Both the position numbers and the translations under genes were made by a program. Shown in pieces: positions 23,743 to 55,925 of a stretch of 64,000 nt of DNA. The stretch covers positions 5,540,151 to 5,604,150 of the forward strand of contig NC_135257.1 in NCBI RefSeq assembly GCF_964204865.1. The letters run 5' to 3'. The notes under the pieces are model-generated. The model was not told the origin of the DNA. It saw nothing but the letters and a program-made list of their open reading frames with translations, and ran no database searches. This stretch comes from Styela clava. Lineage: Eukaryota > Chordata > Ascidiacea > Stolidobranchia > Styelidae. Numbering within the stretch: the stretch's first letter is position 1; each line of letters begins with the position of its first letter.

Positions 23743-25645
23743 ACCGTCACGATTTATTGAAGAATCAACTCTCGATGTTCTCTAAACAGCCACATTTTTC
23801 TGAAAAAATTGCACTTACCGCAGCAAATGCACAACCAACAACTGATGTAATGAACACCATTCAGTCATTTGATGCAACAAAAAACAATTCACATTACATT
23901 AACAACTATTCAAACAGGACCTGATAAACAATTGACAACTGCCATGCAAACAACTGAGATGCAACGAACAGTAAAACCAGGTGCGTGCGCGTGCTTATAA
24001 TTTGTTCGAAATATTGTTCAGCAAAATGGTATTTTCGCACAAAAATTGATTCTTTGATTCAGAATTTATAATAAAATAACTTGATAGCAATGCTCAAATA
24101 TATGAACACATAGGTTAAATGTCATTGAAAAAGTTTGTGCAATTTAACAACAATTTTTTTTTTTTCACAAACTTATTTTGATAACACGATAGTTGGAGGG
24201 TCTCCCTAAAACCAGGCACTTGCGAATTCAGGCACTTTGATATATTTTATTTTTACCGTACGTCATTAGGGTTTCCAATTTACCTGACAAGATAATTAGA
24301 CTTTAACATTGATTACAAAATATAGAAATCAGGCAGTTGTGAAATTTCAGGCTCTATTTTACTATGTATCTGATTACTCTAAAGCAGAAATTTAAATATA
24401 TACACTTTGTATGGTTAAATTTACAACATTTTGGTAAAATACAATACCGGTTGTGACTGATGGAGACGTGTCATATTTCGCAAGTGCCTGATTTTTCATT
24501 TTTCTTGGTGACAGTTGCCATATTTTTTCGCAATTATTTTCTTAAATTATTTGCGTCAGAACTTACTATTCTTTGCTTTCTAACGCAAATTCATTGTTCC
24601 ACAACAATTTGAGCGTTTTTATTAATGCAATGAGCAATACCATTTGACAACATATGGTCAACCATCGTACTTTCTGGATTTATTTGAAATTGAATATGAA
24701 TGATAAAATCTGGCAACCTCAAGCACAAAATGCTAAAATCAGGCAAAACCTTGGTCAGACGAAACGTTACAGAAATATATTTGTGTTAGTGTGCAGCAAG
24801 ACTCTTAATAGTCTTAAATCACTTAGGATAGTTATCTTTACTCTTGCTACAGCATTCTCGCAATATATATGCATACGGATCCGCCGGCACAAAAGCATAG
24901 AAGAAGGATAAGTAGTTAGTCTCGCAGAAACCAAATCATTAACGACTAGTACTAGTTCATCTCGTAAAATAAAATCACAGTGTTTGACTAGTCTCAAATT
25001 GCTTTTAATATTTTGTCGTCTTTTTCAGCTTGTCCACGGTCTGTTTTCAACTTTACTAGTCCTTCCCAAAAAACTGATTATGTGAGAATCAAAGTGCCAG
25101 TACCGGAATTCACTGACATATCAATATGCTCATGGGTTGAAGTATCCAAAACTTCTTATAAACATATCCATACCTTGCTAAGTTATGCAACAATAAATTC
25201 TTCTAACACGATATTAATCGAGTTCATCAAGACGGCTAAAATAAAAGTAACGGTTAACGGTATAATATTGATGACCCACAACATTGATGTCAGCTTCAGA
25301 ACCTTTTTATGCTTCATTATGGCCACTGATACAAAGATCTTTGTGAATGGATCTTTGAAGGCGGAATCAGAGATACACAGTAAGCCAATTCCAGGAAACG
25401 GTTTGCTCGTCATTGGCCAGGATCAAGATAGAATTGGAGGAGGATTTCGCGCTCACCAGTCATTTTTTGGAATAATTGAGAACATATTCATTTGGAATCG
25501 CGCACTTACTGACGAGGAAATGCATGAAATGCATGAGCATAAATGCAAGTGTCCTAATGATTACGTCATTTCCGCCAATCAAACTGTTTCCGTTACTAAA
25601 GGAAATGTGATAGCAACATATACGCAAGATTGTGTAGCTCCCTGA
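23743..25645 (+). CDS. Pentraxin/LamG-domain secreted protein, probable 1-base frameshift
   Basis: Exon 23743-23980 encodes a Thr/Gln-rich stalk, and exon 25029-25645 encodes a roughly 205-aa pentraxin-like concanavalin-fold domain. Diagnostic parts are ISICSWVEV (pentraxin CxW core), NGSLKAES, PGNGLLVIGQDQD, and AHQSFFGIIENIFIWNRALT, the usual F-x-G-x-I-x-x-x-x-x-W-x-x-x-L block. The stop is followed by AATAAA at 25733-25738. The stalk exon's acceptor (TTTTCTTAG) needs a preceding phase-1 exon; the signal-peptide exon at 22283-22337 fits and would give ARDRHDLL. Inside the stalk exon the frame breaks at an A6 run (about 23879-23884). With five A residues the frame would stay open to the donor and match phase 1 of the next exon. 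This may be a sequencing or allelic homopolymer error or a real lesion. Pentraxins are secreted pattern-recognition proteins. Confidence 0.72.
24208..24500. mobile_element. Miniature inverted-repeat element in the pentraxin gene intron
   Basis: AGGCACTTGCGA at the left and CGCAAGTGCCTG at the right are inverted, enclosing about 290 bp. TCAGGCA motifs recur inside and again near 24735. No coding capacity and no target duplication is certain. Confidence 0.5.
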
Positions 25646-38100: not shown

Positions 38101-39002
38101 TTACAGAATCAAACCGGACAGCCAGTATTCTCATGGATAAAATAATACAGCGAAATTTTAGACGAAATATCAGATTTCATGCGAAATTTAGAAATGAATA
38201 AAAGTAATAGCCTTCTGGCAAAAAAATCAATCTTCACTCACTGAAAATTTGGTCAAGCAATTGGTCAAGTATTCGAAGAGAAAAGCGGTTTTTTTAAAAT
38301 GATAGAGACAACTAATAATGAAAATAACAATAAAAATTTTGAAACGATCGTTATGTCCACTACGTGTCCAATAAAGAAAACTTCGTCATTATCTTTCTGC
38401 AGTGCGAAGAATTCCTTTGCAACACCAGAGAGTGTATTCCTAATGAACAAGCATGCGATGGTATTCAACAATGTTCAGATGGAACGGATGAAAAAGATTG
38501 TGAAGTTTGTAGATGATATTTAAATCTTACAGTATATATATATATGTGTGTGTGTGTATGGCTAATAACACCACGATCCTGTTTGACACTTTATTATTAA
38601 GTTATATTATACCTTTAATTTTAAGAAACAGCAAAACGTTAGGTATGCTGAGATCCTGAATGCCGCGAATGACGTCATTTGCAATGACATCCCGACTTCA
38701 GTATACTTCAGTATACATTAACGCAAAATTGTTACCATAACGTGTATTGAAAAACGTTATGGCATAGGCATGGTTTGAACTTTTGGAATTGGAATTCTAC
38801 TCAGAGATGATGATAAATATTTATCGTGTTTAAATAATTTGTAATTTTCACTCAATTACCTCTATAGTATGTTCGAGGATGTCCACCAAATCACTTTCAA
38901 TGTGACAATGGACAATGCAGACCAAATAAATGGAAATGTGATGGAATTGATGACTGCGGGGATGAATCGGATGAAATCGATTGCACATATTACGGGAATT
39001 GA
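29118..39002 (+). CDS. Secreted protein of nine LDLa modules (386 aa)
   Basis: Ten exons: 29118-29196, 29356-29474, 30493-30606, 30974-31102, 35255-35380, 36038-36166, 36497-36607, 37699-37815, 38403-38504 and 38868-39002; the total of 1161 bp closes in frame. Exon 1 is a signal peptide ([13 protein letters not shown]) and ends in phase 1; every later intron is phase 0, and each later exon encodes exactly one LDL-receptor class A module. Modules show the six-Cys pattern with the acidic calcium box, for example [16 protein letters not shown] and [16 protein letters not shown]. There is no membrane segment, EGF or beta-propeller, so this is a soluble LDLa array rather than an LDL receptor. LDLa modules bind Ca2+ and protein ligands, but the ligand here is unknown. 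Two donors (GTCAGT after exon 3, GTTTGT after exon 9) are weak. The 4.15-kb intron 31103-35254 holds a large transposon. Tandem paralogue at 40133. Confidence 0.87.
30046..30262. mobile_element. Foldback miniature element, GTATGTGTACC family, copy 1
   Basis: The left arm GTAGTATGTGAATCAAGATGG followed by ACCAGGTTAGGG is inverted on the right as CCCTAACCTGGT and CCATCTTGGTTCACATACTAC. It lies in the second intron of the 9-module LDLa gene. Related, shorter copies are at about 50797-50885 and 56284-56395. No protein is encoded. Confidence 0.78.
31270..35036. mobile_element. 3.77-kb DNA transposon with 10-bp target duplication
   Basis: The left end GGTGTCTCCAAAATGTCGTG and right end CACGACATTTTGGAGACACC are perfectly inverted, and the inversion continues into GTGGGACAAGTGGG-type repeats. 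AGAACCAAAC flanks the element on both sides (31260-31269 and 35037-35046). A 9-11 bp duplication with inverted ends fits Mutator-like elements, but I find no transposase, so the superfamily is inferred. The interior includes other decayed repeats, such as a hAT-like end at about 31895-31910 (TTTGCCCACCACT). It lies wholly inside the fourth intron of the 9-module LDLa gene, which keeps good splice sites on both sides. Confidence 0.85.
37992..38370. mobile_element. Dispersed repeat R1, copy in LDLa gene intron
   Basis: It begins ACAAGAGAGC, shares CAAATATATGGACACG, AGAGAAAAGCGGTTTTTT and ACGATCGTTATGTCCACT with the copy in lectin B, and ends ACGTGTCCA. As in lectin B it stops very close to an exon (32 bp before the acceptor of the ninth exon). 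The middle parts are diverged. Confidence 0.6.
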
Positions 39003-43100: not shown

Positions 43101-46100
43101 TGAATAATTAAGCTGATTTGATACTCTGCAGAATCTAAATGTACCATTTCACGTGCTTTTCTGCAGTGTGACGAATTTCTATGCAACACTAACGAATGCA
43201 TCCCTTATGAACAAGCATGCGATGGCATACAGCAATGTTCAGATGGAACGGATGAAAAAGATTGCAAAGTTTGTTGTACAAACATGATATTTGTATAGTT
43301 TGTTAAATTGAAACCTCTTGTATGGAGCTCTGTTGAGTACGACGTCTAATATCGTTTTCCTTTATATCCGATACAACTGTCCTTAGCTATACCACTGCAT
43401 AAAAAATATGATGCAAATTATCAGAGTTAAGTTGTGGTTATTTGGACACCAATTGTCCATATGGATCGTTTTGTAAAATCGTTGTCGTAGGACTTTTTGT
43501 TGAAAAAATGGCTATTACTCGAAAATGATCAATTTCTAATTTTCAATACTTAAGAACTGAGGAAGATCGAATTGGGCTTGCAGGGACCGTACTGTTACGG
43601 AAACTCTTTGAATACGGTATAACAGTCTTAAGTTCCGAGATATTTATCAACAGTACAAAACCAAGTCACAGTCCTCTCCCTAGTTTTTTTTCTTCAAGCG
43701 GCAATTCGCCGGCTTATATATTCGACAGCACAGATGGGCCGCCAAAAGTGTCACATCATTACCACTCATTTTGTTGTCGCCTCATCTGTTTAGTCGGTCG
43801 AATCAAGGTTGACACTACAAGCTCCGCTGTCGCGGTATTCGCACGATTAAGTGAAGTTATATATATTGAACGACAATAGAGGGTGGACCACAGATACCAG
43901 CAGGCTATCACCCTTTTTTAAATTAACCGTGACCACTATTTCACCCAATGATTCCTTGGTCTATTCGCGATAGTTCTGCGATTTCATCCAAGTATCTCAT
44001 CCAAGGAGAGCATTGCTCTCCTGTTAATTTAGCCGAAGCAGCCTAAACCTTCAATCAAGAAGCGTACATTAACTCCTCAATAGACCTTATTCATTTAAAA
44101 TCCATCCTACGCGCAAAAAAAAAAGTGACGTAAAAATTTTTTTTTTAACATTAGCTCTTATGGGAAATGTGATCACCAGAGCAGAAATTTGCATTTTTTG
44201 GGATTTTCTAGCAATATCTCAGTATGAACGTGGGCAGTTTTAAAAATAGAATATTTTTTAGATAGTTTTCGATACTTTTATCACTATAAACACGGTCGAG
44301 ATTTTTTATAATCGTTCATCGAAATTTTAATGGGCGAGGTGTTTCCACTGATGTCACTCTCGCTTTACCATGACATTCGGCCATAGCATTGTGGTCTGCG
44401 ATAAAATGCGCGCCGGCTGCTCGTTCTTCTCATTCTGTAGGACCGGTAATTGATTACCGACATGTCGTCGCTTAGCATTTAGTGAAAGACCTATTTTCGC
44501 TATTGCAGTTATGCTGAAATGGCAGTCTGTTCACGTATTCAGTCAGGTTATCTTCTCGTTATTGGCTTTGCACATGTCTTACCGATAGAGTGACCTTTCT
44601 CTAGAGGCTTGCTGACATATACGGTACCTGTATCTGTACCGGTATTGACTTTACACTTTATGTAATACAGTAATATGATGGTTAGATTAATGTTTGTTTG
44701 TACCGTACCGGTATACGACTTACCGTATCCTACCTATTGTCAAAAATGCAATAAAAGTTTTAGTTTTCACTCTTTAATGCAATACTGGTGCCGGTACCGG
44801 TATGCTTAGGACTGTATGGTACGGTAATTATTATACGGTACAGTTTTAGACTTAACAGTACCTGGTATGTGACAAATCAATTATCGTGTTGGAAATGTAA
44901 TAATCAAATAATTTCTACATTAAGATCCTACTGTACGGTATATTATATAACATATCATTTACAAGATGTCAGGCCGAGTTTGCTGTGTCATCAAATGCAC
45001 CAATCATGCCTATAAACTTCAGAAGTGGAAATCATCCCACTGCCCTATTCATAATGTATCGAAAGGTGAAGAAGGCTGTATTTGTACTCCACCGTTCGAG
45101 CATCATCCTTTTCCAACGGAACTCAAAGACCCGGAAGGTCGACAGAATTGGATACATAACATGAATAGAAAAGAACCGGGCAGTAGTAAGTGTGTACTTA
45201 ATTGGCAGCCAACAAAATATTCTCGAGTATGTTCCATTCATTTCGTAGACGGGAGACCCACTTCAAGTAACCCATATCCAACTCTGTGCATGGGATATGA
45301 AACATCAATCGTATCAAATAAAAGATGCTTGCCCAGTTATAGGGCGTCTTATGCACCAAAATGTAAAAAACGTAGAACTGAAGTTTTGGCTGTTCCCACA
45401 AATTTAAATTTCGAACATAATTATTGCCTAAATGCAGATATGGGAAAACTTGCTCAAGTCATCAAAAGTCTTAAGATTGAGAATGCCAAATTACGAGGAA
45501 ATAATAGAAATTTGAGATCCGAAGTTGCCAAACTAAAATGTTCATTTCGGAAAGTTAATGCTCTACCTCCATTACATACAGACAAGTCCGTGGCATTTTA
45601 TACTGGGTTTCCTTCAAAAAAAGTTTTAGACAAAGTCACAAACCTTTTAAGAAGCAAGGCACCAAGGACAAACTTTTTAAAAGGCAACGCACCAAGAAAA
45701 CGTATTATCAGCTCCAAAATCTTAATGTCTACCCGGATGCATAAACTGAGCTTTTCTCAACAACTCATTATGACTTTAATGAGGCTAAGACTCGGATTGT
45801 TAATCACAGACCTAGCTGAAAGATTTCATGTATCCCAAGCGACTGCATCAAGGGTTATCGGAAATATGTTGAAATTTTTGTCACATCAGATGAAAAGCCT
45901 AATCAATAATCCATCACGCTATCATATCATGAATTTACCCCGAAAGTTCAGAATAAGACCATACAATAAAGTCAGGTGGATCTTAGATTGTACAGAGTTG
46001 TTCATTGCGACCCCAAAGGACTTGCATATGCAGTGTATTACTTGGAGCGACTATAAACACCACAATACTGCGAAATATCTTTTAAGTGTCCATCCAAATG

Positions 46101-49100
46101 GAATGATTAATTTTTTGTCGCGTGGGTGGGGTGGAAGAGCAAGTGACAATCATATAGTCAAGAATAGCGGTTTTTTGAATTTGCTAGAACCTGGCGATAT
46201 GGTAATGGCTGACAGAGGATTCCTCATCAGAGATGAGCTTCTCATTCGTCAAGCAGATCTATTGATACCTCCAGGAAAACAGGGCAAGGAACAAATGCCT
46301 CTAAGTGATGTGACAGCAACGAAAAACATAGCAAATAGGCGAATTGTGGTAGAGCAAGCCATAGGTCGCCTAAAAAAATTCAAAATTTTACAGTCGGAAA
46401 TACCTATCAGACTATTGCCTCAATTGGACAATATTATGGTAATCTGCGCAGGTATCAGCAATATGAAACCACCCTTCTATTCCTAGGCGACCTAATATCC
46501 TGCCCCCCAATAATAGCCCTATGCTTTTGCTCTGTATTCGTGAGCTTTAACTATAGTTAGATATCTAAATTAATATACAGGGTGTCTCAAAAGTAAGTTA
46601 CGTTTCAGGTACTTGTCTTTTCATTTCTTCAGAAAACATAGTATGGATAACTAGTAAAATTTAGGTAATGTTTGCATTTTTTAACAAACCATAAATGAAA
46701 AGGGGATTAACCTGAGAAATGAGGTGAAAATTCAAATTCTCTGAGGAAAACATTAATTAATAATTTTAAATTCTCTGTTTAATAGGCGCTAAGTTTGCCT
46801 TGCTAATCTACATGCTTTTTGCCAATCAGCAATTTTGCTCCTCATTTTTGGGGTTAATCTTATTGTCATTCTGTGGGTTGGGAAAAAGTGTAAACAATAC
46901 TTATTAAATTTTACTACTTATCCATACTATGTTTCCAGAAGAAATGAATGCTTTATCACGAGTACCTGAAAAGCAAATCAAAATTAAAAGTGTATACCGG
47001 TACTTACTTTTGAGACACATACCTACATGCATATTTGCAAAAACTACCTTTTATTTGTGGGGCTGAGCCATCACTGATTTCAATAAGTTTACTTCTTGAT
47101 ATTTCTATTTTTGAGCCCTATTTGTTTCTTGCAAAAACTGCCTTTTTTGTGAAGCAGAACCATTACTGATTTAAATAAGTTTATTTCTTGATATTTCTAT
47201 TTTTGAGCACTATTTGTGTATTTGCAAAAACTGCCTATTATTTGTGAGGCAGAACCATTACTGATTTCAATAAGTTTACTTCTTGATATTTCTATTTTTG
47301 AGCCCTATTTGTTTCTTGCAAAAACTGCCTTTTTTGTGAAGCAGAACCATTACTGATTTAAGTAAGTTTATTTCTTGATATTTCTATTTTTGAGCACTAT
47401 TTGCAAAAACTGCCTTTTGTTTGTGAGGCAGAACCATTACTGATTAAAAATAAATTTATTTCTTGATATTTCTATTTTTGAGCACTATTTGTTTATCTGC
47501 AAAAACTGCCTTTTATTTTTGAGGCTAAACTCTTGCTGATCTATTCATCTATTAAGGACTATTTGAGTGAAACCCAAATAATAGTTTATTTATATTTGCT
47601 TACTCCTCTGCTGCCTTAAATGATTTATTTCATATTCATTTTTTTTACCTAATCTGACATTGAATGGTACTTCTAGTTCTGCTGTATATCCACATCCCCA
47701 TTCATTAAACAATTCCTGTATGTAATCAGCATCATTTTGTTACTTGTACTCTTACAAATCATATGCCCACCCCAGGGATGGACCAAAAATTAAGGGTGAT
47801 AGGCTCGCAGGACATATTTGTAGAAAGTTAAAAACCTTATTGATGGCCGATAAATCACAGTTAAGAGTTTGAGCAGCGCATGAAGTGACTGCGCCAACAT
47901 GGCGTCTGACATTTAATGTGAAATTTTTGTTAAATGTTCAGATGCATATGTCTGGTCTCGTAGTAGATTATGGTGCTTGAAGTCGACTTTCTTTTGTTGT
48001 AATGGCGATTGCTTGGTCACCTTGATGTACAAATCGAACGTATTTAGTTTGATTCATCAAGTTCCTGTAAGATTTCCCAAAGGGTGCCCCCACTTGTATC
48101 AGTTTTTGGCATCTCTAAAATGCGATTTTTTGTGCAAGTTCATACTTTTATCATAGAGAAGAAATAAATGATTGTGTACTGCAAAATATTCCCATTCATT
48201 ATAATAGGCGGACTCCTCAATGCTACTTTCCACTTATATTTGTGAGTAGACAGCGCTGCTTTACTCAAACTTCAGTTTATTTTTCAATATTTTGGGGTTT
48301 TGAGCCATGCCTTTACAAGGTGGTCTTGAAATCCTGAATTTCTCAGTAATAAAAATTTTAGCTGGACCTAAGTACAGCTAAAATTTTTATTATTGGGAAA
48401 TTCAGGATTATAATGGCTCAAAGCCCCAAAATCTTGAAAAAAGATAGTTCTAAGTTCCAATATGATGGGCTTGAACATCAGAAATGAAATGTCCGAAACT
48501 TACATCTGTTCAGTGCAACTTAGGCCTAAGTCATAGGGGGGGGAAAAAGCTGAAGTGTGATTAAAAAAGGTTAATATAATCCACATTAAAATAACCAGAG
48601 CTCAGGTTTTCACCAACTGTGAATATCTAGAAAATCAAAAATAAAAAAATTCCAAATTGTTTTTTTGCGTTTTTTTCGAAATTATGACTTAGGCCTGTTC
48701 TGTTCTCATAGGGCGAGGTGTCCAAATCTGAACTTGTGTACCAGTAGTTCATTTAGCATCATTGCTTCATATACTCTTCACCTATAAAATTATTATTTTG
48801 TTTTAGAAGCTGAATCCTTGTGAGCTTTTGTGTTTACATATTGTTTATTTGCCAATACAGCTCGCCATTTGAAAAGCTGACACTCTGCTACGTCTTTGTT
48901 GACAAATAAATGATGATAGCTTATATGCGTGCGTTGGAATTATGTGTGTCAGGGATTGCCTAGGAGTTAGCTGATGGCTTGGAAATCCCATCGCATCTGT
49001 GTGTAATTACTTTAGGCCATGGAAGTACTGGCCGCCTCCATGAAAAGAGTTGATAAATGTAAAAAAAACTGGACTAATTTGGTTTTGGATAACCATAAAG

Positions 49101-52100
49101 AAAAACTCCATTAATATCAATGCTCTTTATTAATATGCAAACAATTTTTTACTCTAGTCAAAGCAACTTGGGAGCAACAAACTCATTGAAAAAATATCTC
49201 AACTTGGGCTTTATACCCATCCAAAAACTCTCATCAAACATAATTCTACATCTAATATGACCATGTACAGAGTAAACAAAAAAGTCACACCACTTAGTTT
49301 TTGAAATGGCCATTTGACCTTGAACTTGAAAATAGTATGGGTGTGTGGTTTTTAGCTTTGGTTCCCCCCCTTCATATACAATATATGGTGGCGGAGAGCA
49401 TGCAGGAGAGGTATCTCTCAAGCTGTATGGACATTTAATTTCCAAAACACCGTCACCGCAGCATTTGCAATACACCACCATGTCTGGAGATGCCCCTAGG
49501 AACAGCAAGTTTTGGTCAATGAAAAGGCCACATTCTCTAGCTGTTATCTCATGTTTTGTTTGCCTCATCAAATCCAGGTAAACTGACTTTGCAATATTTT
49601 CTGTTTTCACGCCATATTTAACTGCAGGTAAGTGACCTAAATCTTTTTGTAGGCCGAACACTTTGTCTAATATTATATTGAGCCTAACATGCTTGCCTAA
49701 ATTCAAACTATTGACCTTACACACTACCTCATGAAAATTTGAGGCAGTCAGCCTATTTTTGCGTGCCATTTTCCAATCATTATTAGTAGCCTGACCCTTT
49801 GTCCTTCTTTCTAAATCTTCAACCTCATCACTTGTAGCCGCTGTAAGACTATTTTTCCAAACCTCCTTCATACTTAAAAGCTTATCAGATTTACTCTCCT
49901 CTTTCCCTGCATATTCGAACATCAATTCTTGAGACACTGAGGCATGAGCTATGCTGAAACAACTACTCTCTCCAACATCTTTCAAACATTCCAGCCACTG
50001 CTCTGTACTTAGTGGTTTTTCACTTATAGGATCACTCTGTCGACAAATTTTTCTTTTGACTGAAATGAATATAATAGATTAAGTATATAGAAGTTCATCT
50101 CCCTCTTAATGATATTGCCCCATTATCAATCATTTCATTTCAGCAATCTGGCAGAAATAAAAACAAAAAGTAAATTAACAAACAGTGCAGTGCCTTTCAA
50201 AAATGAGTGTAGCTGCTATTCCATGTAGTGGAAGCTGGTTGTTTGAAGTTTCTGGATTCGTGGGTAATGTGAAGTTCGAGAATTGTTTCCCATTATCCTT
50301 CCATTACCTCAGTACACTATAATTTATACAAATGAGGCTCACCTGTTTCTCCGTATTTTGGCTTCTTCATTACTAAATGTCGTAGTTCACTTGGTTCAAT
50401 TTTCAATTTTTTTGAGGGAATAATCCAAGTACATGGTAAGGAAGTGCACGCCTGATTTGAAGCACGCTCCATTTTTAGCAGAAGACTTGCTACATGATTA
50501 CATGTTTGATGTATTCTAAGTATTGAAAAATAAATAATGTCACGAATAATTATATCATAAGAAGATGTTTAAGGACAGAGAAATTATTATAAATGCAGTA
50601 TCCATCTAATCTCTCACATCAGCATAGAGTTTTCAGCTGAAAACTACAACCTTAGCACTTTTATAAATTTTCATTCTAACCATAATTCTACAACCTGCAG
50701 TTTTGTCAATTTACAATAATCTACTAAAATTTCACAATCAAAAATGAATTTCAGCAAAGTTATTAACAATTAAAAATAGTACTTTATGAGGTGCTCCTGA
50801 AGTATGTGTACCAAAAGGAGGTAATTATTTTTGTTCGCCTATTTTACATTAAGGCCTAACCTGGTACTCATACTTTGGGGGTACCCTTTACGAAATACAT
50901 TCTGTAGGAATCTTACCCTGCAGTACAGGAACAAAATCCTCTAACAATCTGTCCATTATCCCGTCTGCAGCAAACCCACAACTTATGAGGCGGATCATTA
51001 ATCCGCTGAGACGGGAAACAGTTTGCTTTCAGTATGCAATAATGTTTGAAGCGAAGATAATATACTTCTTTAAGCCACATGGAAGCAAAGTAGCTGTATG
51101 GCTTGCCCAGCTTATACCCATCCAAAATCTTCTCCATCACTTCAGCTTCACCTTTACTCAAATACAGAGCAATGTCTGTAATGTGGAGGTTAGGCCAAAG
51201 AGCTACTCCATTTTTTTCCGCAATCCAGGGCAATGGATCAGATTCAGACGAATTAGGATCGGGTAACTTGATTCCATCTGGAGCAAGTAGGATATTTTGA
51301 TATTCCTGCACCACAGAAGCTGAAAGCTCCTGCGGTGACTTTTTTATCTCCAGGTTCATTGCCTGTGTTGCATATGCAAGGGCAACCAACTCAGCTTTTG
51401 TTTTTTTTGATGTCGCAAGTCCATATCTTCTCAAAAAAATCTTTAAACTGTCTACATTCCACCGCATTATGTCCTCCATAGTATATTGTGGCATTGTTGG
51501 ATGAAGATTTTAGAATATATGTGTTAATTGTAAATAATCTGATAACAACTACAGGAAGATTGGCGAGGTGAAGCTTTTAGTCCTCGCTGCCGTAAGGTGG
51601 TTCACTAACCGCTGGTCGGTTACGGCTTGCTCCACCATCAAGTCCATGCTTCCGAAAACAAATAACTGGCTAACCAATACCAGACCTGGGCTGGTAACCG
51701 GACGAGAGGCCGTTGTTCGCCATATGATTAAGCCTCTCCCCCGGGATAAATATGTAAATCCTATTGCAATATTGTATTCGCTGGACGAAAAGGAAGTTGC
51801 AGTAGCCTATACCGTTACTGGAAATATTAGGATCAGTTATGCATTTGTCTGTTAACTGAATAAAGATTAACTACCACTACCGATTTGTTCAAAAGGAATT
51901 ATTTTAAATAGGATTTACATATATATCCCGAGAAGAAGAATATAAGACGGCCTAACTATAAGGCGAAACACGTCGTCTCATCTCGTCCATGTCGGTTACC
52001 GATATGAGGCTGGTTAGTTAATTTTCTCCAAAGCATGGACTTGATGATGGAATAAGCCTTAACCGCTCAGCCGTCACTGCGTTACGGTATGTGAACCCCC

Positions 52101-52977
52101 CCAACGATGGCGATGAGTCCAACCCGAATCGTATTCCTACTTCAGTACGGTACGGTACCGTACTGTCCTAACGCTTCTGAAACAAATGTTCTAAATCAAG
52201 TTTTTTTGGCCTGTCGGTATGGTACCGGTGGTTAAAATACGGTAACCTGTTAGCTTGTCTTCAGTATATGGTATCCAGCTGTACAGGTATAGATGCGTTA
52301 AACCTTCAACGCTTCCAGTATCCACGGTTACATTACCGCCTCCGTTGACGCGCATATTTGACGTACTGAAGCAATGTTGGCCGAATGTCATGGTAAAGCG
52401 AGAGTGACGTCAGTGGAAACACCACGCCCATTAAAATTTCGATGAACGATTATAAAAAATCTCGACCGTGTTTATAGTGATAAAAGTATCGAAAACTATC
52501 TTAAAAATATTTTATCTTCGAAACTGCCCACGTCCATACTAAGATATTGCTAGAAAATCCCAAAAAATGCAAATTTCTGCTCTGGTGATCACATTTCCCA
52601 TAAGAGCTAATGTTAAAAAAAAAATTTTTACGTCACTTTTTTTTTTGCGCGTAGGATGGATTTTAAATGAATAAGGTCTATTGGACGACTTACATTATCT
52701 CCTGCTGTGTCGACCATCATGAAAAGCCGTTTAGGTAAAATCAAATAATCGAGTTTTTCGTCGTGTTGTTTGCGTCAGTGGAATAAGAAACAACGGATCA
52801 GTAAAATGCATTCAAAATAACTATATAAAAACTATGCTTTTCTTTCAGTACGCAGGAGGATGTCCACCAAATCACTTTAAGTGCAACAATACACAATGCA
52901 GACCGGACAAATGGAAATGCGACGGAATTGATGATTGTGGGGATAAATCGGACGAAATTGATTGCCCATACATATAA
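40133..52977 (+). CDS. Secreted protein of seven LDLa modules (307 aa)
   Basis: Eight exons: 40133-40202, 40765-40889, 41452-41562, 41842-41985, 42467-42577, 42827-42958, 43167-43268 and 52849-52977; the total of 924 bp closes in frame. Exon 1 is a signal peptide ([19 protein letters not shown]) ending in phase 1; all other introns are phase 0, one LDLa module per exon. Typical modules read [16 protein letters not shown] and [16 protein letters not shown]. The last three exons are clear counterparts of the last three of the upstream gene ([27 protein letters not shown]), while the middle exons differ in number and sequence, so modules were gained or lost after duplication. The last intron is 9.58 kb because it houses a complete 8.6-kb transposon; without it the intron would be about 1 kb. 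The donor GTTTGT after exon 7 is weak but shared with the paralogue. Role unknown; extracellular Ca2+-dependent binding is inferred. Confidence 0.87.
44082..44387 (+). repeat. Left terminal inverted repeat of the 8.6-kb transposon
   Basis: It matches the reverse complement of 52374-52680 with few mismatches over about 300 bp, including the TGCGCGTAGGATGG block, GGTGATCACATTTCCC and CGAGAGTGACGTCAGTGG (the left copy has ATGTCAC in this last block). Such low divergence suggests recent insertion. Confidence 0.9.
44966..46486 (+). CDS. THAP-domain DDE transposase (506 aa)
   Basis: Single intact exon. Residues 1-100 form a THAP-type C2CH zinc finger (VCCVIKC and SRVCSIHF; C89-x2-H92), the DNA-binding module of many animal transposases. 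Residues about 155-190 are coiled-coil-like ([20 protein letters not shown]). Residues about 265-320 form a helix-turn-helix ([20 protein letters not shown]). From about 335 on is a DDE_Tnp_4 nuclease: D341 in WILDCTEL, D416 in VMADRGF and E463 in [12 protein letters not shown] form the catalytic triad. All three acidic residues are present and there are no internal stops, so the enzyme may be active. It would cut the inverted ends of the surrounding element. The start is the first Met before the zinc finger. Confidence 0.92.
   Translation: MSGRVCCVIKCTNHAYKLQKWKSSHCPIHNVSKGEEGCICTPPFEHHPFPTELKDPEGRQNWIHNMNRKEPGSSKCVLNWQPTKYSRVCSIHFVDGRPTSSNPYPTLCMGYETSIVSNKRCLPSYRASYAPKCKKRRTEVLAVPTNLNFEHNYCLNADMGKLAQVIKSLKIENAKLRGNNRNLRSEVAKLKCSFRKVNALPPLHTDKSVAFYTGFPSKKVLDKVTNLLRSKAPRTNFLKGNAPRKRIISSKILMSTRMHKLSFSQQLIMTLMRLRLGLLITDLAERFHVSQATASRVIGNMLKFLSHQMKSLINNPSRYHIMNLPRKFRIRPYNKVRWILDCTELFIATPKDLHMQCITWSDYKHHNTAKYLLSVHPNGMINFLSRGWGGRASDNHIVKNSGFLNLLEPGDMVMADRGFLIRDELLIRQADLLIPPGKQGKEQMPLSDVTATKNIANRRIVVEQAIGRLKKFKILQSEIPIRLLPQLDNIMVICAGISNMKPPFYS
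46577..47026. mobile_element. Miniature inverted-repeat element nested in the transposon
   Basis: CAGGGTGTCTCAAAAGTAAG at the left is mirrored by CTTACTTTTGAGACACATAC at the right, and the inversion continues inward (ATAGTATGGATAACTAGTAA against TTACTACTTATCCATACTAT). TA flanks the left end, in keeping with a Tc1/mariner-type miniature element, which is an inference. It lies just after the transposase stop codon. Confidence 0.75.
47036..47560. repeat. Minisatellite, about six units of about 85-95 bp
   Basis: Units start GCAAAAACTGCCTTTT at about 47036, 47131, 47223, 47318, 47404 and 47499, each running through CAGAACCATTACTGATT and TTTCTTGATATTTCTATTTT. Units 1 and 3, and 2 and 4, resemble each other most (TTATTTGTGAGG against TTTTTTGTGAAGC), so part of the array arose by duplication of a two-unit block. 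It lies between the transposon's two genes, with no coding function. Confidence 0.88.
48285..48440. repeat. 150-bp hairpin (inverted repeat)
   Basis: TATTTTGGGGTTTTGAGCCA and TGGCTCAAAGCCCCAAAAT form the outer stem; CTGAATTTC...AGTAATAAAAATTTTAGCTG pairs with CAGCTAAAATTTTTATTATT...GAAATTCAG as the inner stem, with an apex near GGACCTAAGTA. It is most likely a miniature element nested within the transposon. A stem this long could also block read-through between the convergent genes, which is speculation. Confidence 0.8.
49158..51494 (-). CDS. SAP/SWIM/YqaJ-nuclease protein of the transposon (550 aa)
   Basis: Three exons: 51494-50917, 50515-50343 and 50059-49158 (578+173+902 bp) closing in frame with GT-AG junctions. 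Residues about 11-40 resemble a SAP-type DNA-binding helix pair ([20 protein letters not shown]). A SWIM zinc finger spans the first intron: C188-x-C190 and C198-x-H200 (FCSCTAG, then HQTCNHVA), the usual CxC-xn-CxH pattern. Residues about 345-500 are a YqaJ/lambda-exonuclease fold: RLTASNF entry motif, D443 in GASPDM, and E457-x-K459 in LEIKCPYS, the PD-(D/E)xK catalytic set. The second Cys-rich patch is YCKCCGDG. YqaJ proteins are 5'-3' exonucleases in phage recombination; in this transposon class the partner is presumed to help replication or repair of the element. All key residues are intact. Confidence 0.85.
50797..50885. repeat. GTATGTGTACC-family repeat, copy 2
   Basis: GCTCCTGAAGTATGTGTACC on one side and GGCCTAACCTGGTACTCATA on the other are related to the arms of the element at 30046-30262. 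It lies in the first intron of the SWIM/YqaJ gene, so it joined the transposon after or along with that gene. Confidence 0.6.
51576..51770 (-). repeat. SINE-like repeat, copy 2 (reverse)
   Basis: Reverse-oriented relative of 27388-27545: ATCAAGTCCATGCTTCCGAA, CTGGTAACCGGACGAGAGGC and ATAAATATGTAAATCCTAT are the complements of its diagnostic blocks. It faces copy 3 across about 130 bp. Confidence 0.7.
51905..52105 (+). repeat. SINE-like repeat, copy 3
   Basis: Begins ATAGGATTTACATATATATC, includes AAGACGGCCTAACTATAAGG and GTCGGTTACC, and ends near AAAGCATGGACTTGATGATG and a 40-bp tail. It is more diverged than copy 2. Both lie inside the right part of the 8.6-kb transposon, upstream of the YqaJ gene. 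Confidence 0.65.
52374..52680 (-). repeat. Right terminal inverted repeat of the 8.6-kb transposon
   Basis: Reverse complement of 44082-44387. It ends 168 bp before the final exon of the host LDLa gene, leaving that exon's TTTCTTTCAG acceptor untouched. Confidence 0.9.
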
Positions 52978-54188: not shown

Positions 54189-55880
54189 TCATGATTCGCT
54201 GTTGGTGTTTTCATCTAATTCGTCATTCTTCGATAGTTGTTTAAGATCGTTAGATTCTGTGCTCCGGCATTTTATCCAACAATGTTGCAGTTTCGAGCAA
54301 ACATTTTCGAACCAGTGGGGCTGAAAACGGTTTGGGTTTCGTTGGCTGAAATGATATCCATACACAAAGTAGATGACCAGACCTAATAAGAACAAATTTT
54401 GTTTGTTAACAAAAATGTTAATTTGCTTGTGATACCAATGAATAGCATTCCATTCAAACATTTATAAATAAAGATTTAGATTTTAGATTATGACAGAAAT
54501 TCACGTACGTGTAGGATCATTTGACGGATAGGCTGATTGGCATTGCGTGATTAACAAACATTAAAAAAAATGACTTCGGCCCAACATGCTAAACTTTTGT
54601 TTTTGCCAAGTCGACTTCACCGAATCGAAGTATCAAACCGGGTCGATTGATCTGCCCTTTTGTTCTTTAGGTCGAGTCAGTGTTGCGTACCATCTGGTTA
54701 AAATTCAAGGGGGCGGGGCCTTGTGATTCAGATCACTAAACTCCATGCAAATTATTGATGAAATGGTGTCGACAGTGGCAATTAAAGCAAAAGAAAATTA
54801 TAAATAACTCACCAACCGACACCCATATAATAAGTCGAATCCAAGTCAAATACTGAAGTTTAATCATGAAGAATAAATTTGTACAAATACAGAGATACGG
54901 AAGAAATGGAACTAGTGGCACCTGCGTAAATGTAAAATACAGAATGTCCATATTTGCAATATTCATTAGAATATATGTGTGTAAACATGAAAAAATGATA
55001 AAGGGCAATTCAGTTCTGGTGATATGCAAGTCACATGTGAACTATGTCACAACGACCTTTTGCTGTTTTCGCGATGTGGAGTACAAACATTAATATATTA
55101 TTTACTATATTATTAAATTTATTATGTTGAGGGGAAAATTTGAAAAGGAACAATATGAAGAAGGAACTTACTCGAAAATTCTTTTCCTGTGATGCGTCGT
55201 CTTCGTGTTGTTGATGAGCAGCGATTAATAGAAGAGAAGCAATAGTTATCAACGTGAAGATGACAAAAAGCAAAACCACCCACCACGAGCCGATGATAAA
55301 TTTTTCCCAAGTATACGACAACAAGAGCATCCCCGATAAACTAGAACAAACAGACACTAATAGCGCAAATACCACCACTTTTCCAGGCTTATATCGTCCA
55401 AAATGTAGGTCTAAGAAAGTTCCACAAAATTTGGATTTTAACATCCCGGCTTTATTTTTTCCGCTAGGCTGGGTGTTCTCGGAACTGGTTGTTGAATTGT
55501 TATCGGATTTGCTTCTCGCTGGTAATTCTTGTTTTGTAGAGTCGTCTCCATTGTGAATTGTTTTTTGATAAACCAATCTAGAAGTTTCACTTTGCTTTGG
55601 TTTTGTTGCTGGTTGTGCACCGGATGAATCCAGTCCTGTTTAAAAATGTTGATAATTACTAAAACGAGAATATCGGTCGGAGACCAAAGACTTATCGATC
55701 GAAACTGCGGTTTCGATTCATGACTCTATAGTGACACTGCGTGTCCCATCACTAATTAATTAATAACTCTCTAATTATACGACCTAATTCCGAGATATGA
55801 TGAATGCACATGCAAAATTTGGAGCAGATTCAACCTCGCCTTCGTGAGATATCGCGTTCATCTAACAGACAAACAAACAA

Positions 55881-55925
<45 letters not shown>

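Follow-up and report, generated by a model that had tools for sequence, protein, structure and literature searches.

The window analysed here, a 64,000-nucleotide stretch of Styela clava DNA, almost certainly holds a complete, autonomous-looking and recently mobile ISL2EU element, whose second gene appears to encode a nuclease related to lambda exonuclease. This DNA transposon spans positions 44082-52679 (8,598 bp), and the window copy lies on contig C9 of a 376.6-Mb assembly. The two-gene layout with a YqaJ exonuclease and the AT target have already been published for the ISL2EU group of the PHIS superfamily (Han et al. 2015, PMC4482050); in the accessible part of that paper, the function of the second gene of ISL2EU-type elements is called unknown. 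As far as our searches reach, some anatomical detail is unreported in the literature searched. The SAP-SWIM part of the nuclease and its conserved 5'-phosphate pocket were not found described in the open-access literature searched, and the portion of Han et al. 2015 available to us holds no mention of SWIM. The “SWIM” in the available text of PMC7826175 is an institute's acronym, and PMC10225492 mentions YqaJ, in the excerpt at hand, in a list of domain-containing genes. With one copy open in both genes and others broken in either gene, this young family is good material for asking whether, and why, an end-resection enzyme is encoded by a DNA transposon itself.

Extent, ends and gene content of the element

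The ends and genes are placed as follows in the window.

44080-44081, unstranded: left copy of the AT target-site duplication, with A before it
44082-44383, plus strand: left terminal inverted repeat, 302 bp, starting AGACCTTA
44966-46486, plus strand: transposase gene, one exon, 506 amino acids, with THAP, HTH_Tnp_4 and DDE_Tnp_4 (Pfam matches) and D341, D416 and E463
49158-50059, minus strand: nuclease exon 3 with stop, lambda-exonuclease-type YqaJ domain (Pfam, profile, AlphaFold model)
50343-50515, minus strand: nuclease exon 2, CxH half of the SWIM-type motif, GT/AG sites, open in all three copies that hold this exon
50917-51494, minus strand: nuclease exon 1, SAP-like region, middle region without a domain match, CxC half of the SWIM-type motif
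52378-52679, minus strand: right terminal inverted repeat, 302 bp
52680-52681, unstranded: right copy of the AT duplication, with T after it

The target context of the window copy is thus A/AT/T. A sequence-only reading of this DNA had described inverted ends of about 300 bp that are nearly identical, and the two arms (44078-44383 and 52378-52683, a span that counts four bases outside the element) indeed agree at 297 of 306 positions without gaps. That reading located the left end correctly; its right end, 52680, falls one base into the AT duplication, the true end being 52679. Ends were examined at 21 loci, 17 of them two-ended and four with one end only. AT is found on both sides at 16 of the 17, including all four copies with coding sequence, and the exception, L020, has AT and AA and is perhaps not one element.

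The transposase gene is intact, and its product matches DDE_Tnp_4 (2e-45), HTH_Tnp_4 (2.2e-15) and THAP (2.9e-5). The catalytic residues D341, D416 and E463 named in the initial reading are found exactly there, and are invariant in 11 of 11 aligned transposases, namely its own and 10 of the 120 relatives among the matches listed. The closest transposase among the matches listed is a Styela clava protein, P0001, with 97% identity over 67% of the query. This 340-residue protein is identical to none of the four copies described below: it shares 329 identities with the C9 copy and 330 each with the C2 and C6 copies, and its 21 + 308 identities with the C4 copy are split over two frames. A transposase pattern search of viral contigs returned 66 pattern matches, of which none was confirmed.

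The nuclease gene is convergent to the transposase gene and consists of three exons with GT/AG borders. Once these are joined, the frame is open for 550 amino acids, so that both genes are open, as had been proposed. The C-terminal half of the product matches the Pfam families YqaJ (2.4e-17) and Viral_alk_exo (2.8e-13). The other open reading frames of at least 90 codons in the element (93 and 95 amino acids) have no Pfam match above the cut-off.

Comparison with the published description supports an ISL2EU assignment by gene content, target and host, as the sequence-only reading had suggested. The element resembles ISL2EU, as described in the accessible part of PMC4482050, in its THAP, HTH and DDE transposase, in its YqaJ second gene, in the AT duplication within A/AT/T, and in its animal host. 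In three respects it differs from what that part reports: its terminal inverted repeats are 302 bp long, against 6-259 bp (a described range, not a criterion); its first bases are AG, against usually GG (a tendency, likewise not a criterion); and its length is 8.6 kb, against an average of about 4.84 kb. KolobokE, in the available text of PMC9587614, is also a DDE transposon with a lambda-exonuclease-like nuclease. However, it makes 4-bp TTAA duplications rather than AT, and in it the transposase domain is followed downstream by the nuclease, whereas the window element has a separate, convergent gene. PIF/Harbinger elements share a related DDE transposase and two genes, but their duplication is a 3-bp TWA (PMC4482050 and PMC9179366, each in part). 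Myb/SANT, the second-gene type of PIF/Harbinger, has no match in either gene or in the 93- and 95-residue frames. The remark of the sequence-only reading that few cut-and-paste elements bring a phage-type exonuclease is right, yet the accessible passages of PMC4482050 and PMC9587614 already report one for ISL2EU as a group and for KolobokE, respectively.

Several further parts lie inside the element.

44622-44841, unstranded: left subterminal cluster of CGGTAC (either strand), candidate binding region; the 582 bp of subterminal sequence on this side hold 7 sites
46620-46948, unstranded: inverted-repeat stretch with 44-nt arms, possibly a small nested element
47032-47525, unstranded: tandem array with a unit of about 92 bp, 5.3 copies
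48330-48409, unstranded: intergenic hairpin with 38-nt arms
51603-52079, unstranded: inverted-repeat stretch with 56-nt arms; related DNA occurs in the flank of the C6 copy
52148-52227, unstranded: right subterminal cluster of CGGTAC; the 883 bp of subterminal sequence on this side hold 4 sites

The CGGTAC motif, which was picked after inspection of the sequence, occurs 11 times in the 1,465 bp inside both ends (44384-44965 and 51495-52377), compared with 19 times in the 55,402 bp outside the element. This density possibly marks transposase binding sites, or else simple-sequence drift. The tandem array has 2.1 units in the C6 copy, and TRF reports none in the C2 and C4 copies.

Copies, age and insertion sites

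A left-end query of 919 bases gives at least 43 matches in the assembly (40 of 402 candidates were scored). Besides the window copy, three others retain both ends together with coding sequence: C6 (8,366 bp), C4 (8,312 bp) and C2 (5,526 bp). Substitutions between the four, compared part by part, amount to 0-1.4%; this figure leaves out insertions and deletions, which are sizeable between the two genes and in C2. The search for copies more than 95% identical, proposed as a check by the sequence-only reading, has therefore found three others. The window copy is the only one of the four with both genes open. In C6 and C4 the nuclease is open and retains the ten checked sites, and the transposase is frameshifted. 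In C2 the transposase is intact, and a deletion equivalent to window positions 48189-50996 takes away the last two nuclease exons and some of the first; no clear microhomology is seen by eye at its joint, and the AT duplication is present. The AT-flanked loci also comprise 12 shorter elements (12 of 16) measuring 1.1-2.5 kb, with ends 83-93% similar to those of the window element.

The family is young, since substitution between copies is so low. The expectation that the element may be young and mobile is borne out as to its youth, while the argument first offered for it, the similarity of the inverted ends, fails. Among the four copies, left arms diverge by no more than 1.0% and right arms by no more than 0.7%, whereas within the window copy the left arm and the right arm disagree at 9 of 306 positions. 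Because the arms vary less between copies than within the window copy, the left-right difference is older than the insertions. Dating the insertion by the likeness of its two inverted ends was thus ruled out.

Empty sites had also been proposed as a check, and paralogous ones were found for two insertions. The joined flanks of 16 loci were compared with the retrieved loci and the window; related DNA bridges them at two, and the other 14 have no bridge among the sequences compared. The C6 copy is bridged by L044 and L051; for L028, a short element, the bridging DNA is that of L020 and of window positions 55747-55885. The joined flanks with a single AT align without gaps at the join, where the empty site reads AATT in L020 and in the window and has one base different in L044 and in L051, fitting a 2-bp duplication.

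The window copy itself probably sits inside an intron of a host gene with LDLa repeats, upstream of the terminal exon, as its flanks suggest. The stretches 43158-43274 (a putative exon) and 52856-52970, on either side of the element, show 85-86% similarity to 38394-38510 and 38875-38989, a pair separated by 364 bp with no insert, and the terminal-exon stretch 52849-52974 matches LDLa at 1.1e-11. Elsewhere in the window, the open frame 24992-25642 encodes a pentraxin domain (2.2e-19).

The nuclease and its pairing with the transposase

A profile was built from 22 nucleases, the element's own and 21 hand-picked from the 120 listed out of 247 matches. Over the catalytic core it hits LHK-Exo (2e-25) and lambda exonuclease (1.1e-13). 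For exon 3, AlphaFold gives a model (pLDDT 88.9, pTM 0.84) with the same two proteins as its best PDB matches (E values of 2.1e-9 and 2.5e-8), with TM-scores by query length of 0.49-0.57 over the best nine. Lambda residues W24, R28, E85, D119, E129 and K131 have their counterparts in W346, R350, E404, D443, E457 and K459, the last three of which stand, after exon joining, at the positions that the sequence-only reading had given. Of these, only R350 varies in the 22 sequences (21 of 22), the other five being kept in all. In a second set of 40 (its own exon 3 and 39 of the 120 among the matches listed), the counterparts of lambda W24, R28, E85, D119 and K131 are all invariant, and the catalytic D, E and K are invariant in both sets. 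The functions of lambda Trp24, Arg28, Glu85, Asp119 and Lys131 are described in PMC7496540, in the part accessible to us. We infer that the product of the second gene is a nuclease of the lambda exonuclease kind, which would enter at a 5'-phosphorylated duplex end and degrade the 5' strand. It is like lambda exonuclease and LHK-Exo in catalytic core, in modelled fold and in 5'-phosphate pocket residues, but identity in the structural matches is 18-25%, and the window nuclease has an additional N-terminal half with SAP-like and SWIM-type parts.

This N-terminal half is less uniformly recognised. A CxC..CxH motif (C188, C190, C198 and H200) is invariant in all 22 nucleases, and Pfam SWIM matches two of them, its own protein not being among these. 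SAP scores E 0.1 on its own exon, under the Pfam cut-off; at E up to 0.5 it is found in 14 of the 22 (best 1.1e-10), again not including its own spliced protein, and the family profile gives a weak match to the SAP of THO1 (0.0096). The domain assignments first proposed, a DDE transposase and a YqaJ nuclease with SWIM and SAP-like parts, have fared unequally: Pfam places THAP, DDE_Tnp_4 and YqaJ in the element's own proteins, while SWIM, which has no Pfam match there, and SAP, which stays under the cut-off, are supported by relatives and by the motif. A fold search of the PDB with the N-terminal exon model (pLDDT 85.8) gave 271 matches up to E 10, none of them at E ≤0.001. A PHD finger is matched at E up to 0.5 by eight of the 22 nucleases. 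The Styela element has none, unlike such relatives as P0139, P0146 and P0148, a hint that the aiming part varies by lineage. The SWIM-like CxC..CxH is also seen by eye at L059, a locus of a sister family discussed below.

The closest nuclease among the matches listed is a Styela clava protein, P0121 (99% over 78%), whose three differences from the window nuclease are those of the C4 copy. In both protein searches, all named species among the matches listed are animals, and many matches carry no species name. Phage, herpesvirus and mimivirus nucleases are among the profile and fold relatives of the nuclease.

Across the assembly, 35 transposase matches were reduced to 31 loci (four were further fragments of a locus already counted), and 25 nuclease matches to 24 (one merged). 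A YqaJ gene lies within 8 kb of the transposase at 14 of the 31 loci, in 13 cases convergent and in one divergent. Three of the pairs, all among the convergent ones, are copies of the window family; the remaining 11 are not, and no fewer than three of those form part of a single sister family. The idea that the nuclease is a hitchhiker peculiar to the window element was ruled out, because the pair recurs at these 11 loci. No YqaJ was detected within 8 kb at 17 of the 31 transposase loci, nor a transposase at 10 of the 24 YqaJ loci. Pairing may be underestimated, as many unpaired loci are short or weak matches; loss is equally possible. The divergent pair (L063, C2:6906000-6911500) stands head to head, as opposed to tail to tail in the other 13. 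At L062 (C13:21932500-21940500), YqaJ fragments are arranged in tandem 4.8-4.9 kb apart with no transposase match within 8 kb, which could be a decayed element or a duplicated remnant.

In the sister family (L059-L061), 465-717 bp separate the matches of the two genes, and the matching pieces are 92-97% alike; no clear terminal inverted repeats appeared in the stretches examined. The dN/dS values, from pairs that are not independent, with gap and stop codons dropped and part of the nuclease gene covered, are 0.43, 0.27 and 0.31 for the nuclease (p 0.16, 0.0002 and 0.0008, by Fisher tests with rounded counts) and 0.39, 0.54 and 0.58 for the transposase (p 0.07-0.09). By this measure, two of the three comparisons show purifying selection on the sister-family nuclease, which is more conserved than the transposase in two of the three pairs. 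In the window family, substitution counts are too small to judge selection.

Possible roles of the nuclease

Tentatively, resection of the donor break is the most likely of the roles considered for the nuclease. A lambda-type enzyme starts from duplex ends that carry a 5' phosphate, and the break at the donor site would suit it. By analogy with established DDE biochemistry, the transposase would bind the ends through its THAP and HTH parts, make cuts staggered by 2 nt at A/AT/T in both element and target, and then join the two. The nuclease would load at a 5'-phosphorylated duplex end and degrade the 5' strand, so that the resected donor break would go to homologous repair and the element would be copied back from the sister chromatid. 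The SAP and SWIM parts, and PHD in some relatives, might hold the nuclease on DNA or chromatin. Host proteins would have to replace the missing annealing partner, since none is recognisable in the element, and this absence counts against resection. So does the self-complementarity of the AT overhangs expected from excision, which could be sealed without it. A need for the nuclease is also called into question by the C2 copy, which lacks most of the gene yet is AT-flanked (loss after insertion is possible), and by the loci at which either gene is found without the other (17 of 31 and 10 of 24). A more specific version, in which a lambda-type resection nuclease aimed at chromatin by SAP and SWIM, elsewhere by PHD, forces the donor break into homologous repair and gains a copy per jump, is speculative. 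If true, it would place a built-in resection engine in a cut-and-paste element, a eukaryotic counterpart of phage recombination nucleases.

It is also conceivable, if doubtful, that the nuclease acts inside the cutting and joining reaction itself, as an essential enzyme that trims 5' ends, either on the excised element or on the target, ahead of gap filling. That it accompanies the transposase at 14 of 31 loci, that two of three comparisons show purifying selection and that the 5'-phosphate pocket residues are retained would all agree with this. However, the ends of the copies are precise and 2 bp are duplicated, leaving little trace of resection at the element's own ends. Moreover, a single gene is usual in Spy elements, which belong to the same superfamily (PMC9179366, in part), and Spy transposases are active according to the available text of PMC11304231.

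The second protein is unlikely to serve mainly as a partner for DNA binding or nuclear import, with catalysis secondary. Such a role would recall the two-gene layout of Harbinger, whose Myb-like partner is required (PMC9179366, accessible part), and would suit the SAP and PHD matches (14 and eight of 22, at E up to 0.5), but the invariance of the catalytic D, E and K in all 22 and all 40 sequences would be unexpected if catalysis were dispensable. Some role outside those set out here is likewise improbable. We give little credence to a nuclease directed at competitors or invading DNA (other elements, viruses), or at survival of the excised form, rather than at transposition: its phage, herpesvirus and mimivirus relatives would be in keeping with this, but the sequence holds no pointer to it, and a joint role explains the pairing with the transposase more simply. 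That the locus is old, dead or chimeric, two unrelated genes amid chance inverted repeats, can be dismissed with near certainty despite the broken transposase frame in two of the four coding copies, given four copies with shared ends, distinct flanks, AT duplications and 0-1.4% substitution, and a window copy with both genes open.

The double Pfam match of the nuclease, to YqaJ and to the viral alkaline exonuclease family, also matters for annotation. In the accessible part of a clam genome paper (PMC7826175), expansions of YqaJ and herpesvirus alkaline exonuclease domains are listed as endogenous viral elements; some of these may instead be ISL2EU second genes.
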